From: a virus
IMG/VR virus record: IMGVR_UViG_3300028400_000009
Coordinates: 1-52,217 of that record
Direction: 5' to 3' (one strand)
DNA length: 52,217 nt
Part shown: one piece after another, positions 5,498-52,217 of the stretch
Numbering within the stretch: the stretch's first letter is position 1
Layout of the letters: each line of letters starts with the position of its first letter
The notes under the pieces: model-generated
Databases searched by the model: none
What the model was told of the DNA's origin: nothing
What the model saw: only the letters and a program-made list of their open reading frames with translations
Position numbers and translations under genes: made by a program

Positions 5498-6598
5498 ATG
5501 ACAGAAGATAACACAGTATTGAAAACATTGAAAGTCAGAGTTAAAGATAATCGCAAGAATATCCTTAACCGTATGGCGTTCGATATTAATCAAGTGTGGA
5601 ATAAAGCCAACGAGATAACATCAGAAGAATGCTATGAGCCTATTCCAGAAGTCGGTTATGTTTTCAATAACATTTCAGCCTTCGATATTCAAAAACGAAT
5701 AAAAGGTATCCGTAAAGAACGAGATATGATTATTGGTGCAGGCTCAGCACAAAAAATAATTGCTATCCATGCTAAAGCCAGAAAACAATTTGAAAAAGTA
5801 AAACTTAAATGGCGTACCAGTGGTGGTAGTCGAAAGTCATTAGGTTTTGTACCGTTTAAATCAGGTGCTATTAAGTGGGTGAACGGTCAAATTAGATTCT
5901 GTGGTTATTATTTTAAGGTATGGGATAGCTACGGATTGTCAAAATATGACTTTAGGTCTGGCTCATTCTCACAAGATGCGCGTGGTCGCTGGTATCTTTC
6001 TATTGTTGTTAAAGTTCAGCAGGAAAAATCAAAAGGTACAGGTCAAATAGGCATTGATTTAGGGCTTAAAACAACGGCTGTATGTTCAGATGGTACGACT
6101 TTAGAGCGCAAACAATATTATAGAAATATGGAAAGCAAACTGGCTATGGCGCAACGCGCCAATAAGAAAAAGCAAGTTAAGAATATACACGCAAAAATTA
6201 AGAATCGTAGAGCTGATACAAATCATAAATTCAGCACAAAATTAGTAAAAGAAAACTCATTGATTGTAGTTGGTAATGTATCTAGCTCTAAATTAGCTAA
6301 AACTAAAATGGCTAAATCTGTACTAGATGCTGGCTGGTATCAATTAAAAAGTATGCTTGATTATAAATCCAAAGGGATGCAAGTATGCTATGTGGAAGTC
6401 AATGAAGCGTACACTACCCAGGCTTGTTCGTGTTGCGGCTGTATTAGCAGCAATAGTCCGAAAGGTATGGATTCGCTTGGAATAAGAGAATGGACTTGTG
6501 CAGAGTGTGGCACAAAGCATGATAGAGATATTAATGCGGCTGAGAACATTCTCCGTCTGGGGCATCAGACGCTCGCGGGAGGAATCCCCCGCTTTTAA
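5498..6598 (+). CDS. tnpB: TnpB-type RNA-guided nuclease (IS605 OrfB)
   Basis: 366 residues. RuvC-I motif GIDLGLKTT carries Asp187; the zinc ribbon is CSCC (310-313) / CAEC (334-337); the RuvC-III motif HDRDINAAENI carries Asp344. The usual RuvC-II segment reads IVVGNVSSSK, with Gly where most TnpB proteins have the catalytic Glu; a Glu is present in VNEAYTTQ (303), a position used by TnpB groups with a rearranged active site. So it may still cut. TnpB cleaves DNA guided by an RNA from the element's right end. A TATAAT at 5483-5488 (TTGATT 16 bases upstream) puts the transcript start almost at the ATG. Full length, no frameshift. Confidence 0.9.
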   Translation: MTEDNTVLKTLKVRVKDNRKNILNRMAFDINQVWNKANEITSEECYEPIPEVGYVFNNISAFDIQKRIKGIRKERDMIIGAGSAQKIIAIHAKARKQFEKVKLKWRTSGGSRKSLGFVPFKSGAIKWVNGQIRFCGYYFKVWDSYGLSKYDFRSGSFSQDARGRWYLSIVVKVQQEKSKGTGQIGIDLGLKTTAVCSDGTTLERKQYYRNMESKLAMAQRANKKKQVKNIHAKIKNRRADTNHKFSTKLVKENSLIVVGNVSSSKLAKTKMAKSVLDAGWYQLKSMLDYKSKGMQVCYVEVNEAYTTQACSCCGCISSNSPKGMDSLGIREWTCAECGTKHDRDINAAENILRLGHQTLAGGIPRF

Positions 6599-29300: not shown

Positions 29301-32300
29301 TCAAACGCTCAAGCAAAAATGATTTTATGTCTTTGCTGTTATTACCATATTTAAGCCCTTGGTTGGATAGACGTGTTTTTGCGCCCTCTATTTGTTCTGA
29401 TGTCATTAATTTTGCAATTTTGCCATCGGCAATTTCAGCAACACGCATCATTTTCTCAGTTGCATCTTTTGCAGCATCAGAGAGTTTATAGAATCGTTTT
29501 GAAGCTCTATCTAAACCGAATCGCCCAAATACGCTTTTGCCTTCGTAGTTCCTGCCGTCATTCCAATTCTCAGCCGTTTGTCCTTTCTCGAACGACTGAT
29601 TAAACCTGATTTTTGGATTGTGACTGAATAGATTGCCGATTAACCCACCGACAACAGAGCCGATAGTGCTACCGATTCCAGGCATGAAAGAACCAAGTGC
29701 CGCACCAATTCCAGCCCCCATTTGCCCAGCCGGATTCGCGCCTAATGCGCTCGCCAGACCAGAACCTATTTGATAGGAATTTATTGCGCCGCCGATACCT
29801 TTGCCAGTGCCTTTGAATAATCCACCCACTGAATCTCTAACGGTCTTGATTAAATCACCAAAACCGCCGCCTTTGCTAAATACGGATTGAATTGATTTTT
29901 GTATATCACCAGCCGCTTTATTTATTTTGAGATTAACATCAAGCGTCAATGGTTTTAACAGCGCATCACGCAGATTATTCCATTTTAATTCACCTGTATT
30001 GAATACATCAGCTATAGCATTTTTAACCGTATCCCATGCGGCAATCTCTTGATCTGTGTACCTAAGTTGCTGTTCTTTTTGCTGAATTATTTTAGCTTGT
30101 TCTGCACCGTACTGTTTTGACAACTCAAGCAATCGTGCCGCTTCATCGCCTTGCTCTAATCTAACTGTTTGGATTTGTAAATTATCGTTAATCTCTGCTA
30201 TCTTCTTTAAACCGGCTATACGCTTGTCATCAGCTATTTTTGCTTCTGCCTGTTTTTTTGTGTAATGATCTAGCTGTAAATTTACACTAGCGATTGAGTC
30301 ACTATTGAGCTTATTCAGTCCAGTTAGAGCCGTTATTTGCTTTGTGCGCTTTGTAGCTTCATCATAAATTGACTTTGCAATTCTCACCGCCTCACGCTTT
30401 GTTTCTACGGCTTTTTTACGCAGAAACTCACGCTTTGACTCTAATAGTGTCAATCCTTTGATTATTGGGAAACCGCGCTTTTCTTCTGCTATTTCATCAG
30501 CAATGGTTTTTAACGCTTTTTTACGAGTTTCAATAAGCTCTTTTTGTGCTTTTGATGTTATCTTGTAAGACTTGGATGAATCCATCAGAGTTGATGATAG
30601 CTTTTTATTTAAGCTGCTTAATGCGAATACTGGGGCTTTTTGGTTGGCGTTAATGCCAACCGCAATGCCTTCAGGTATCCATTTTGCAAGATCAGCCATA
30701 AGCCTTGATGGGGATTTTATGCCAAAGAAACCTTTAACAGATGAAAACACGCTCTTTGACATGCTTTTTGCAGCTTGCTTCGCTCTCGCTGCACCCGCCG
30801 AAATACCTTTGCCAATACCTTCTGATATATTCCTGCCAAGGCTTTTCGCTTTATTGATAATTCCAGAAAAGTCAGGCATCTCAATTTTAGGGATTAATAC
30901 TTTCAGCGAGAGATTGTCCCACCATGCTTTAAACTTCTTTGCCAGTTCCCATGCAAGTTTTAACGGCTTTGGAATCAACGTCAAAACCTTTTCTGATAAT
31001 TTCAGGGTATTCCACCACGCAAACGCATCTTTAGCCAGATTCCAGCCTATTTGCAAAGGCGCAGTTACCAAACCAAGCACTTTTTCAGCAAGTGTAGAGC
31101 TATTCCACCAACTCATGAACTGTCTAGCTTTTTCCTCAGCGTACTCAACACCAGCAGGGCTAACACTAACCGCCCATTCTCTTAATGATGATTGATTCCA
31201 CCAACCAGCGAACTCGGTAGCCACCATTTTCGCGCCGAGAATAGCAGTATCATTGATGCTAATTATTTTCTCTGCAAACGTGGTGTTATTCCACCAGCTA
31301 ACTAATTTATCCCAATTCTTATAGATCAGAGTAGCACCAACAGCAATAGCCGCGATTATTGCCCCAATGGGATTGGCGATAATTACAGCTGTTAATGCTG
31401 AAAAAGCGGTAGTGACAATCGGAATTGCAGAACCTAAGCCAAGCAGAGTAGGTCCTAACGCCGCCAATCCACCTGCAAGAATAGCAATGTATTTAGTAAG
31501 CTCAGGATTAACCCGCATCCATTCACCAAACGATTGAATAATAGGCTTAACGCTATCAAGCAAATCTTTGAGCGTATCAAGCATATTGACATCAACCAGG
31601 TTCTTTAATGATTCCCTTACCTGTCCTAGTTTGCTGTCAAATGTTGCTTGCTGTCGGGTGAGTTCTTGTTGCCATTTTGTAGCAACTAACGCCTTATCAC
31701 CTGTTTTTTCTAGTAATTCTCCGTATTTATCAAGATTACCAAGTAGGGCAGCTATACCAGCAGAATTTTCACGTCCGAATATTTGAGTCAAGCTTCCAAC
31801 TGTATCACCTGATTTATCAACAGCTTTTTTAAATTCTTCAAGTGCCGCTGGAGCATCTTCCCTGAATTTCTTGATTAAAGCATCAGGAGCAAGCCCTAAA
31901 TCTTCTATTGCTTGTGTGGCTTTTGGAGTTAGATTCTTCAGGCTTGAAAATTGAGTAAGTAATGCGCGAATAGACGTGGATGCGATTTCAGGTGCTTTGC
32001 CCGTGTCAATCAAAGTTGCCGCTAATGCTGCTACCTGTATTTCAGATAAGCCAGCTTCTTTTGCTAGTCCCGCTACTCTTGAAGTAGTATTAAATATCTC
32101 AGCGCCTGTAGACTTTGAAGAATCAGCTAACACATTAACCTGTTGAGTAAGCTCTTTCAGTGCTTCCATATTATTTCTAATACCGAAACCTGCGCCAATA
32201 CCAAGCAATGTCTGCGCTAGTTCACCCGCTTGCATATCAAGAGCTACCGCGCCCTCAGTACCCAACCGCATAAAGTCAGACCAGTTTTTGAACTCGACAC

Positions 32301-47239: not shown

Positions 47240-48066
47240 TACGCCACCTCTCTATGGTATTTGCCTTCATAAATTTTTGCGAAATTGTTAGGTCTTGATA
47301 GCCATTCAAGATCAGGCAAGAAAGGTGGTTTATCATCTGTACCCTCTGTTTTACCTGTCAGAAATCTTGATTCTGATATGTAAGTGAAATACTTTTCCCA
47401 ACTCTCCAATGATGGCAAATCTTCAATCCACCGTTGTTTTATGTATCCCTTCCTTGTTGCTGTTAGCTTTCTTAGCTCTGGATTGTTTGGCAAGATAGAG
47501 TGATATAAAGATATTATTCTTTTGAATGGAACTTGAGTTTTTTGTTTAGTTTTTGTTTTAACTTCAACATCTACATCACCATGTAGATTATCATTAGTAG
47601 TATTATTATATATAGTAGTATTATATGTCGGATTTATTTCCGAGTTATTTTCGGATTTATTTCCGAGTTTTGTCGGATTTATTTCCGAGTTCGGATTTAT
47701 TTCCGACATAGTAGCCTCACTTAATTCGGATTTATTTCCGACATAGTAGCTTTTCCCCTTTTCGGTTAGTTTCATACAGTCCTTTTTCCCTACTTTTATA
47801 TGCTTTATAACGCCTAATTTATCCAGCGCTTTTAGATGCCTGTATATTGTGTCTGGCTTTAACCCTAATATTGGAAGTTGTTCAGATATTTTTTGCCTTG
47901 CGACCCAGTAGTAAATATCGTTATCTACTATAATTGCCTCAGCCCATGTGTTTGCATGGGCTAATAAGTCAAAGATTATAGCTTGATTTATATTTGTTAT
48001 GCCTAGACGTAAGCATTCACGCTGACCAACGTATAAAGTAAATTTGAAGTTATTATGCTGTGACAT
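47239..48066 (-). CDS. O-like replication initiator
   Basis: 275 residues. A winged-helix start (NFKFTLYVGQRECLRLGITN, then QKISEQLPILGLKPDTIYRH), a repetitive middle (SEINP and GNKSE blocks), then a basic domain for helicase contact (TRKGYIKQRWIEDLPSLESW). In lambda, O binds iterons inside its own gene and recruits the helicase. The same plan is visible here: the iterons produce the amino-acid repeats. Read from the structured leader at 48067-48231, AAAGGGGC before ATG. Confidence 0.85.
   Translation of the reverse strand: MSQHNNFKFTLYVGQRECLRLGITNINQAIIFDLLAHANTWAEAIIVDNDIYYWVARQKISEQLPILGLKPDTIYRHLKALDKLGVIKHIKVGKKDCMKLTEKGKSYYVGNKSELSEATMSEINPNSEINPTKLGNKSENNSEINPTYNTTIYNNTTNDNLHGDVDVEVKTKTKQKTQVPFKRIISLYHSILPNNPELRKLTATRKGYIKQRWIEDLPSLESWEKYFTYISESRFLTGKTEGTDDKPPFLPDLEWLSRPNNFAKIYEGKYHREVA
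47587..47741. other. Probable replication origin: five iterons and an AT-rich tract
   Basis: TCGGATTTATTTCCGA, a 16-bp imperfect palindrome, occurs at 47628, 47651, 47673, 47691 and 47726. Beside them 47587-47627 is almost pure A/T with TATTATTATATATAG, a natural unwinding element. Iterons next to an AT-rich element inside an initiator gene is the lambda-type origin. Confidence 0.85.
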
Positions 48067-48231
48067 TTATAAGCCCCTTTGTCGATTGTTGAAAAATCAG
48101 GGCATATCATTATTGTTGATTCAAAGCTCTTTGACTCTGGGTGGGTAGCGTTGCATAGAAAGCCAACAATAACAAACTATACAGACCACCCAGATCAAAG
48201 AACTCTAAGCCGACGCTACATCAGCCCTGTT
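48067..48231 (-). ncRNA. Highly structured 5' leader of the replication genes (riboswitch-like)
   Basis: About 165 bases from the predicted start to the O-like ATG. P1: CAGGGC (48229-48224) / GCCCTG (48103-48098) closes the domain. P2: CTTTGA-TCTGGGTGG (48200-48186) pairs with CCACCCAGA-G-TCAAAG (48144-48129), 15 pairs with a single bulge. GTAGCGT (48219-48213) pairs with ACGCTAC (48151-48145) in the P2 loop, making a pseudoknot. GCCC of P1 can also pair with GGGC in the ribosome-binding site AAAGGGGC, which would switch translation. No known class recognised. Base pairs read directly; switching is an inference. Confidence 0.65.
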
Positions 48232-48238
48232 ACTGCAT

Positions 48239-48267
48239 ATTATAATGCAATTTGCTAAATTTGTATA
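48239..48267 (-). promoter_or_regulatory. Promoter of the replication genes
   Basis: Minus strand TATACA (48267-48262), 17 bases, TATAAT (48244-48239). The -35 overlaps ATACCTCTAAAGAGATAG (48265-48282), a weak match to the 18-bp operator. Start near 48231. The 48268-48378 gap also holds the perfect 12-base palindrome GAGGTGCACCTC (48304-48315). Confidence 0.7.
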
Positions 48268-48378
48268 CCTCTAAAGAGATAGTTAAATATCATTCCCTTT
48301 CTGGAGGTGCACCTCATTAATTGTTTTTACCAGTTATGCTTCATTATTCCATCTCCTATTAATTTTAACCAACATCTA

Positions 48379-49059
48379 CTATTTTTTTATATACTTCTGC
48401 ATCCTAGCGTCAGCTTCATTGTTGATCCTTTCTTCGTCATACTCATAGCCAACCCAGTTATCAACTCCATTGGCTTCTAATTCAGACAGCTCAATATCAC
48501 TCTTCAATAGTCTTTTGAGTTCTGTGTATCCAATACTAACCTTTCCATCTGATTGAGATTTTAATAAACTCAATGCGTTTCTAGCTTTGCTAATTGATTC
48601 GTTTATTGAATCTAGCTCTTTCTTTGCATTAAGACATTTACGCTCCCATGCCTTTACTTCAGCATCAAAATCATTAATTTTTGCTTCGTGGGCTTTAATT
48701 TCACTTTCTAGTCCTATATTCTTCTCATTCAGTGTAGCGTTCAATGCCGATAATTTAGCTATGTGTTCTTGCAGTGGCTTAATCTGCAAGAACTCTACTG
48801 GTTCATCATGTAGTAAACGATTCTCCACCATGACTACAATAGATGCCTGTGAGTCGTTGATTATATCTATGACCTCCTGAGCTTCCACGCATGTGTGTCT
48901 TGTTGGTGTTCCTTGGTTTCCTACCATGCACTCAGTACACCACTGAGCACCCTCAAATTCATCAGCATATTTCGGTGTTAATTTAATCTCACTGAAATCA
49001 TCCGATACTTTTCTTATTATTACGCATGGGTTGTTCATGTAGTATTTTACGTTTTTCAT
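48379..49059 (-). CDS. Coiled-coil protein with a Cys cluster
   Basis: 226 residues. Start NPCVIIRKVSDDFSEIKL, Cys cluster WCTECMVGNQGTPTRHTC (about 41-58), an 80-residue coiled coil (ALNATLNEKNIGLESEIKAH, EVKAWERKCLNAKKELDS), helical end. No family; early gene with its own repressed promoter. Could be a recombination or defence-related factor. Confidence 0.7.
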   Translation of the reverse strand: MKNVKYYMNNPCVIIRKVSDDFSEIKLTPKYADEFEGAQWCTECMVGNQGTPTRHTCVEAQEVIDIINDSQASIVVMVENRLLHDEPVEFLQIKPLQEHIAKLSALNATLNEKNIGLESEIKAHEAKINDFDAEVKAWERKCLNAKKELDSINESISKARNALSLLKSQSDGKVSIGYTELKRLLKSDIELSELEANGVDNWVGYEYDEERINNEADARMQKYIKK

Positions 49060-49129: not shown

Positions 49130-49628
49130 GGTGGTTGTTATTTGCTCTCCTGTTTGTTTAGACAATAGCAAGGCATTAGAGGGGTTTAAGTGGTTTCCCA
49201 AGAAAACTAATCCTCTGTTTCTGTTATTTAATATGCGTGTATCAATACCAACCAATATATCAGGCTTCGTTATTTGTGTGCAAAACTTTCATTATTGCAT
49301 CGGGAACTGTACATCTAACCGTTTATCAACCATGTTCTTTTTTGCTGGCTCTCTAAAGTTTGCATGAATTAACTTAAACTTTAGCAGTCAAAAAATTATA
49401 CGAATTTAGGTTGATGGTGTATTACCACTTTTAAGTACCTGTTTTGTTCCGCAGAATTGCATAGATTAGCGGACGCTCCCCCTCTAGTCATTGTCTATGC
49501 GCGACTGGAACGGGTTGGATATTGTCTGCACTTGATCTCGCTCAAGCCGTTTTATTAATAGTTTAAGTCACTACTCGACAGGCGTAGGCGGTATTGAATG
49601 CTTGATTTAAGCAGATTTAGAAGATTAT
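49130..49628. other. Gap without a confident gene
   Basis: About 500 bases. On the minus strand, frame pieces such as NFREPAKKNMVDKRLDVQFP and ILVGIDTRILNNRNRGLVF read like protein but are split by stops, so a decayed gene is possible. Structure: GCATAG (49479-49484) / CTATGC (49495-49500 region) and CTTGA/TCAAG at about 49530-49546, both weak. The plus frame at 49131-49367 has no start signal and an odd composition. Confidence 0.35.
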
Positions 49629-51470: not shown

Positions 51471-51515
51471 ATTGAGCGTAAAGCCACCGACTTTAGGCGT
51501 GGGGAGTATGTCAAT
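51471..51515 (+). other. Orphan copy of an IS605-type right end
   Basis: Begins with ATTGAGCGTAAAGCC, identical to 5246-5260, and continues GGCGTGGGGAGTATGTCAAT, close to the right end of the tnpB element (GCGTGGGGAGGATGTCAAG). No tnpB gene is next to it. A deletion remnant or an isolated guide-RNA scaffold. Confidence 0.6.
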
Positions 51516-51671
51516 CGGTAGAAAACATCGGTAAATAGCTCAGTATGTCGGTTAACCGAGCAAAACAGAGTTAACCGAGCAAATTCTACCGAGCTACATG
51601 GTAATTTCTACCGACCAAATATACCCACAAAGGGGTATTTACCGATTATCAGAATCTCGGTAGTATCGGTT
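51515..51671. repeat. Ten TCGGTW half-sites in both orientations
   Basis: TCGGTA/T at 51515, 51528, 51548, 51657, 51666 and WACCGA at 51554, 51573, 51587, 51609, 51640. TCGGTTAACCGA (51548-51559) is a perfect 12-bp palindrome. The 18-bp operator ATACCCACAAAGGGGTAT is at 51621-51638. Dense sites suggest a multi-site protein assembly before the gene at 51698. Confidence 0.7.
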
Positions 51672-51697
51672 CTGAAATTAAACGAAAGGAGTTACAA

Positions 51698-52078
51698 ATG
51701 AATATTGATGATTTAACTATTGGGGAGGCTAGAGAAATCGCCTCTTTTTTTCAGCCAGTGGAATCTAATAAAGGGTTTAAAAATCCATTAATTGGTTCTT
51801 ATGTTCTTGTTAGAACGTATGCAAGCGGCGTCCACTTCGGAAAACTAATACAACATCAAAACCAAAACATTGTTCTTGATGAAGCAATAAGAATATGGAA
51901 ATGGAAAGCCAAAAAAGGTATTGCGCTTTCAGGAGTTGCAATGCACGGACTAGACATGGATTACGATAACAAATTAGATTCGATGACAAGTAACCATGTC
52001 ATTACTGACGCAATAGAAATTATTAAGTCTGATGTTTTGAAAAAGCAGTTAAATGAAATAGGAGAGTACAATGCTTAA
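51698..52078 (+). CDS. Hypothetical protein
   Basis: 126 residues. DDLTIGEAREIASFFQPVES, then NPLIGSYVLVRTYASGVHFG and IRIWKWKAKKGIALSGVAMH, a beta-rich domain common in phage hypotheticals (vrt..aGvh.G.l). Ribosome-binding site AAAGGAG. The end overlaps the next start (ATGC TTAA). Confidence 0.7.
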   Translation: MNIDDLTIGEAREIASFFQPVESNKGFKNPLIGSYVLVRTYASGVHFGKLIQHQNQNIVLDEAIRIWKWKAKKGIALSGVAMHGLDMDYDNKLDSMTSNHVITDAIEIIKSDVLKKQLNEIGEYNA

Positions 52079-52217
52079 CATACAAGTGTACTGGAAAACT
52101 GGCTCTGGCTCTGGCTCTGGCTATGGCTATGGCGATGGCTCTGGCTATGGCTATGGCGATGGCTCTGGCTCTGGCTATGGCTCTGGCTATGGCTCTGGCT
52201 ATGGCTATGGCTCTGGC
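52071..52217 (+). CDS. Gly-Ser/Tyr/Asp repeat protein, partial
   Basis: Start MLNIQVYWKTG followed by alternating Gly with Ser, Tyr or Asp (GSGYGYGDG type) to the window edge. The DNA is a six-base repeat of GGCTCT, GGCTAT and GGCGAT. Coupled to the gene before it (GGAG, then ATG inside the stop). Similar Gly-X proteins occur in other phages; the repeat probably varies in length by slippage. Function unknown. Confidence 0.75.
   Translation, partial: MLNIQVYWKTGSGSGSGYGYGDGSGYGYGDGSGSGYGSGYGSGYGYGSG

Follow-up and report, generated by a model that had tools for sequence, protein, structure and literature searches.

What is the task of a long, structured leader lying directly in front of the replication genes of a phage? 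This question is raised by a 52,217-nucleotide stretch of viral DNA (IMG/VR record IMGVR_UViG_3300028400_000009, positions 1 to 52,217; hereafter the window), in which a leader of about 165 nt on the minus strand ends at the ATG (48066) of an O-like replication initiation gene that is followed by a DnaB-like helicase gene. A preliminary description took this leader for a riboswitch that might sense a metabolite, a phage protein or temperature and switch replication on. The leader is indeed structured, lies where that description put it, immediately upstream of O and DnaB, and has a promoter-like site of its own, an arrangement that makes a role in the control of replication plausible. But what kind of control would it be? 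We give about an even chance to the reading that the leader is autoregulatory and resembles the C4 RNA of phages P1 and P7 and the CI RNA of P4. The features discussed below are collected in Table 1.

Table 1. Leader elements and replication genes of the window
Feature	Position	Strand	Remarks
Promoter-like site TATACA-17-TATAAT	48267-48239	minus	10/12 consensus matches
5′ flank	48236-48213	minus	GCAGTAACAGG 48236-48226 and GTAGCGT 48219-48213; weakly complementary to hairpin interior
Transcript start, proposed	about 48232	minus	
P1	CAGGGC 48229-48224 / GCCCTG 48103-48098	minus	score reached by 93/1000 shuffles
7-base contact (pseudoknot)	GTAGCGT 48219-48213 / ACGCTAC 48151-48145	minus	p about 0.25
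Long hairpin	48208-48121	minus	arms 48208-48186 / 48144-48121; 23 pairs, one bulged base
Hairpin interior	48185-48145	minus	inner stem 48183-48177 / 48158-48152
Interior antisense segment T, TTGTTATTGTTGG	48175-48163	minus	13 pairs with 3′ flank, some G-U
Target T′, first copy, TCAACAATAATGA	48119-48107	minus	starts one base past hairpin
Predicted hairpin at ribosome-binding site	48103-48073	minus	GCCC 48103-48100 / GGGC 48076-48073
Second target copy, TCAACAAT	48092-48085	minus	8 pairs; 5 nt 5′ of ribosome-binding site; in loop of predicted hairpin
Ribosome-binding site AAGGGG	48079-48074	minus	covered by predicted hairpin
O-like replication initiation gene, 275 aa	48066-47239	minus	PHROG 345, E 8e-28
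Five palindromic iterons, CGGATTTATTTCCGA	47741-47629	minus	inside O
DnaB-like replicative helicase gene	47239-45866	minus	Pfam DnaB_C, E 2e-62

Nearly all of the excess structure of the leader is a single long hairpin. The fold of the whole leader is more stable than that of any of 200 dinucleotide shuffles (z = -4.36), and the score of the long stem (49.0) lies far above those of 300 mononucleotide shuffles (mean 19.4, maximum 36.0). This stem had been described as 15 pairs with one bulge; it is real and beyond chance, although longer than that. The 6-pair P1 and the 7-pair loop contact of the same description can likewise be found in the sequence, but both fall within what shuffled sequences give, and neither is seen in any relative. 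Thus, the impression of far more structure than chance is correct for the leader as a whole and for its long stem, whereas it does not extend to P1 or the pseudoknot individually. The complementarity of the 5′ flank to the hairpin interior is also within chance (p about 0.25). Sites as good as the promoter-like one number four, against 5.7 expected in shuffles; since they are no rarer in shuffles, it is its position that makes this site the putative promoter of the leader.

What, then, is the interior of the hairpin for? Within it lies a segment, T, complementary to the sequence just 3′ of the hairpin, a match overlooked in the preliminary description. By contiguous-helix score the match is better than expected (p = 0.006, 500 loop shuffles), whereas its duplex energy is equalled in 163 of 1000 shuffles (p 0.16), a poor rank that is due to the A+T richness of the duplex. 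Because T′ begins one base past a 23-pair stem, steric hindrance should keep T from pairing with T′ in the same molecule as long as the stem is intact. Their pairing would belong either to an alternative fold or to an encounter of two molecules, and the steric block makes it most likely that it is meant for another molecule. It would not act simply by covering the ribosome-binding site: T′ ends 27 nt and the second copy 5 nt upstream of AAGGGG, and when both are blocked in the calculation, the unpaired probability of the site goes from 0.23 to 0.32 rather than down. Simple occlusion is thus not supported by the accessibility calculation.

Pairing between molecules is the described mode of action of two known phage RNAs, P4 CI and P1 c4. 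According to a paper on IsrK, P4 CI RNA is processed from a leader and pairs with sequences upstream and downstream of itself, which terminates transcription of the replication genes (PMC4825925), and C4 RNA is processed by RNase P and has two loops, a′ and b′, the latter directed at the ribosome-binding site of its target (PMC5320573, PMC12197685). The same two sources tie the heteroimmunity of P1 and P7 to C4, and a further one lists C4 for Proteobacteria and phages (PMC2864571). Like P4, the window has a long hairpin ahead of its replication genes, with an interior segment whose match to the 3′ flank exceeds chance by helix score though not by energy. Its closing stem is of the C4 type, with 23 pairs around 41 nt compared with 17 pairs around about 44 nt. 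However, it has a single inner hairpin of 7 pairs with a 7-nt linker instead of two inner hairpins with an unpaired linker, its target lies one base past the stem rather than about 48 nt away as in P4, the genes downstream are O and DnaB instead of the P4 alpha primase, and neither the C4 model nor isrK matches it. With P1 and P7 c4 it has in common that the hairpin RNA precedes its target gene, although the regulated gene would be O and the main target lies 27 nt upstream of the ribosome-binding site. Because of the model mismatch, the single inner hairpin and a target away from the ribosome-binding site, the window leader is better read as working like C4 and CI than filed as a member of C4.

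Relatives of the leader were sought in several ways. No similar DNA was found in phage, E. coli genome or plasmid collections. Rfam yielded no usable riboswitch in the window or in relatives at gathering or relaxed thresholds: the window has no match at the gathering threshold, and with E up to 5 the interval 47900-48400 gave two eukaryotic matches of chance level. C4 itself (RF01695) is matched neither in the window, at gathering threshold or with E up to 5 in 47900-48400, nor in the O-family relatives. The O protein served for three alignment scans, of which two together found 14 loci in genomes and 26 in viral sequences and the third 43 viral ones, many of them already in the earlier set; when the leader was aligned locally with the 300 bases that precede O at 43 loci (some contigs duplicated), no score rose above shuffles. 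A search of viral contigs with 8-residue patterns for relatives of DnaB and the terminase found none. In the open PMC literature, with subscription papers outside the scope, we found no description of a leader of this kind before an O gene.

Is the layout, rather than the sequence, shared? Among 34 O-family loci, a long stem lies in a leader directly before O in L006, L030, L052 and L078, while most of the other O genes begin at, or overlap, the end of the upstream gene, and the leader is therefore not obligatory to the O gene. The leaders of L006 and L030 have no local similarity to that of the window above shuffles. That hairpins in front of related genes are unrelated in sequence is unlike an aptamer and like an antisense RNA of the immunity type. 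The fold is more stable than shuffles in L006 (z = -6.57), which has two inner hairpins, and in L030 (z = -2.13). By energy, the match of interior to 3′ flank is equalled in 34 of 1000 shuffles for L006, 10 of 1000 for L030 and 231 of 1000 for the O leader of L052. In the helix-score test, L078 lacks a 3′ target on the strand of O (p 0.95). Several relatives were picked for high scores, which flatters their p-values. For L006 and L052, the stem chosen differed between the helix-score and energy tests, and the version with the long 5′ arm outside was used for the layout. At a further locus (L061), two elements, at 629-707 and 1015-1089, stand upstream of a gene overlapping O. In L092, a 17-pair hairpin bears a loop, TCCTCCAAG, antisense to the ribosome-binding site of an antirepressor gene with pRha and ANT domains, and O comes next; this locus and L052 mirror the antirepressor arrangement of P1 and P7 c4.

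The antirepressor leader of L052 has a homologue in L115, which is a different phage from the same sample and carries the element ahead of another O-like gene. All 13 pairs of T with T′ persist from one to the other despite three double and two single changes, and the spacing is 60 nt in both. This comparison, a single pair of sequences, is the clearest evidence in our material and suggests selection for loop-target pairing. When close relatives of the L030 and L052 O leaders were sought for covariation, only the same contigs and L115 were recovered. A search through the common 18-base flank of the L052/L115 leader gave nine viral stretches, of which only the known two contain the element, and none of 398 genomes of the order Campylobacterales contains a homologue. 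Relatives of the O gene are themselves rare in that order (4 of 298 genomes).

As the layout can be defined without reference to sequence, both strands of 12 contigs (420,582 bases) were scanned for a stem, an interior and a matching target within 60 nt. The strict scan gave 19 matches, compared with 0, 3, 3, 4, 2, 1, 4, 5, 0 and 6 (mean 2.8) in ten locally shuffled sets. Three of the 19 are apparent iteron arrays of O genes, of which G005 has two and G010 one, and another two read a place a second time (window, plus strand; G001, minus strand). The same scan found 14 matches in the control phages lambda, TP901-1, Mu, pOW20-A and 587AP2 (212,283 bases); outside long reading frames, the controls have 3 places in 34,679 bases and the 12 contigs 11 in 74,920, an unconvincing difference. 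The scan thus separates real genomes from shuffles and does not single out the O-family phages; since the controls yield about as many matches, the genome-wide count was not accepted as proof of a class. That the scan can find genuine RNAs of this type is evident from two cases. On the minus strand of P4, used as positive control, it picks up at 8502-8425 a 17-pair stem with interior segments that match the 3′ flank at 8384-8369; this element is Rfam C4 antisense RNA (74.9 bits) and represents the CI RNA, in agreement with the published account of that RNA. In the Mannheimia phage 587AP2 (L132), the scan recovered, without prior knowledge of it, an element at 30693-30766, one of the three control places outside long reading frames, that Rfam independently identifies as C4 (30688-30771, 53.8 bits); it precedes an antirepressor and is absent from the feature list of the record.

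Several elements are found together in one contig of 36,875 bases (G308). With the strict scan, the layout is seen there upstream of O, of an antirepressor-like gene (pRha/ORF6C) and of two further genes. The first of these is a homing-endonuclease gene that has a NUMOD3 motif, and the hairpin loop preceding it, TCCCCCGATC, faces GATCGGGGGA at +2; the second, in which an AP2 domain scores below threshold, resembles an HNH homing endonuclease (loop CCTCCACG). A fifth element, at 30065-30131, appears only in a laxer scan. Three hairpins of this contig (L097:8864-8923, L098:5069-5126 and L098:10065-10131) have loops exactly complementary to a ribosome-binding site 2-6 nt downstream, and such hairpins precede homing-endonuclease-like genes and genes of unknown kind.

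How might such a leader work in the window? The processing of its RNA, action in trans, termination and biological role are what we infer from the hairpin, the promoter-like site, the gene order, the complementarity, the recurrence of the layout in relatives and the comparison with P4 and 587AP2. A transcript starting at about 48232 would first form the long hairpin, with T held in its interior. Hairpin RNA that has accumulated, either processed or still within leader transcripts, would bind the 3′ flank of new transcripts and lower the expression of O and DnaB. Transcription would end prematurely in the untranslated leader, as in P4; this is likelier than a covering of the ribosome-binding site, because blocking of both targets leaves that site at least as accessible as before. 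The outcome may be self-limited replication or immunity against related phages. As the 28 window proteins profiled include no recognised integrase or repressor, lysogeny, and hence a role in immunity, is putative only.

The main rival keeps the whole event within one molecule. GCCC at 48103-48100 can pair, as the preliminary description had noted, either with P1 or with GGGC at the ribosome-binding site, and it might thus close the site of O or be captured by P1 in a ligand-free switch shifted by a phage or host protein, by the speed of transcription or by temperature. Leaders of translational riboswitches and thermosensors are structured and able to cover a ribosome-binding site, and the window leader resembles them in this respect: in its nested minimum-energy fold (-61.3 kcal/mol) GCCC is paired with the site, which is predicted to be mostly paired (mean unpaired probability 0.23), and forcing P1 costs only 4.2 kcal/mol (-57.1 kcal/mol). 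However, P1 and the 7-pair contact are within chance and were seen in no relative, and the complementarity of T to T′ and its recurrence would be left unexplained; we consider this switch possible but rather unlikely. A switch with a metabolite as its ligand seems to us highly improbable. A long structured 5′ leader, a possible pseudoknot and an expression platform would suit it, but nothing supports a ligand, and the riboswitch first proposed has in its disfavour the lack of an Rfam match, of similar DNA and of any aptamer-like core conserved in O-gene relatives, which carry unrelated hairpins or none.

The other two explanations turn away from the minus-strand RNA. If an antisense RNA were transcribed through the hairpin from the plus strand, as in plasmid copy-number control, a promoter-like site at 48089-48116 (9/12) directed into the hairpin could serve it; such sites are equally common in shuffles, however, no terminator-like site was found on that strand, and the match of T with T′ on the same strand would have no explanation, which makes this very unlikely. 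Somewhat less so, although still improbable, is a feature of the DNA itself, such as inverted repeats bound by a protein, a remnant of a mobile element or part of an origin, as near-palindromic DNA within a noncoding gap might suggest. Against it, changes in the loop are compensated by changes in the target in the L052/L115 pair, and the record contains no further copy of the leader beyond matches of about 13 bases. Moreover, the iterons of the lambda-like type lie inside O, as they are annotated in lambda, and probably mark the replication origin of the window, so the leader need not be one. Relatives such as L002 and L020 likewise have iteron arrays, of the TCGGATCTAAATCCGA type, within O.

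Several other features of the window were observed. Just upstream of the leader, 48379-49059 encodes a protein with a C-terminal stretch like the T7 gp5.9 RecBCD inhibitor, fused to a longer part. A further strict match of stem, interior and target lies on the plus strand at 49339-49395, in a noncoding stretch of about 700 bases with no reading frame downstream. Dense TCGGTAGA / TCTACCGA / TCGGTTAACCGA repeats at 51500-51680, upstream of a gene at 51698, look like a multi-site protein-binding region or a second origin region. At 5498-6598 is a TnpB/OrfB-type protein (Pfam Cas12f1-like_TNB, OrfB_IS605), next to which no TnpA was noticed, and the very end of the record (52119-52212) consists of short tandem repeats (GCTATGGCTA...) that read ARAIAI in one frame.

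Does the window leader belong to something larger? A wider reading, which we regard as unlikely, is that self-targeting hairpin leaders form a fast-evolving class in the phages of this O-gene group; the window would have one, on the replication operon, and G308 four or five. In each, the loop would be antisense to the control region downstream of it, and the gene would differ from leader to leader (replication initiator, antirepressor, homing endonucleases); with layout kept and sequence free, each leader would then define an immunity specificity of its own. What has been described of C4/CI RNA immunity comes from P1, P7 and P4 and, through a covariance model, from further phages of Proteobacteria. 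Should leaders of the same logic but without common sequence stand before lambda-type O genes, antirepressor genes and homing-endonuclease genes, models of families would capture no more than a part of the RNA-based immunity of phages, and a search by layout, for a stem, its interior and a target after the stem, would be a route to the remaining cases. It would also provide a testable link between the leader of an uncultivated phage and superinfection immunity.
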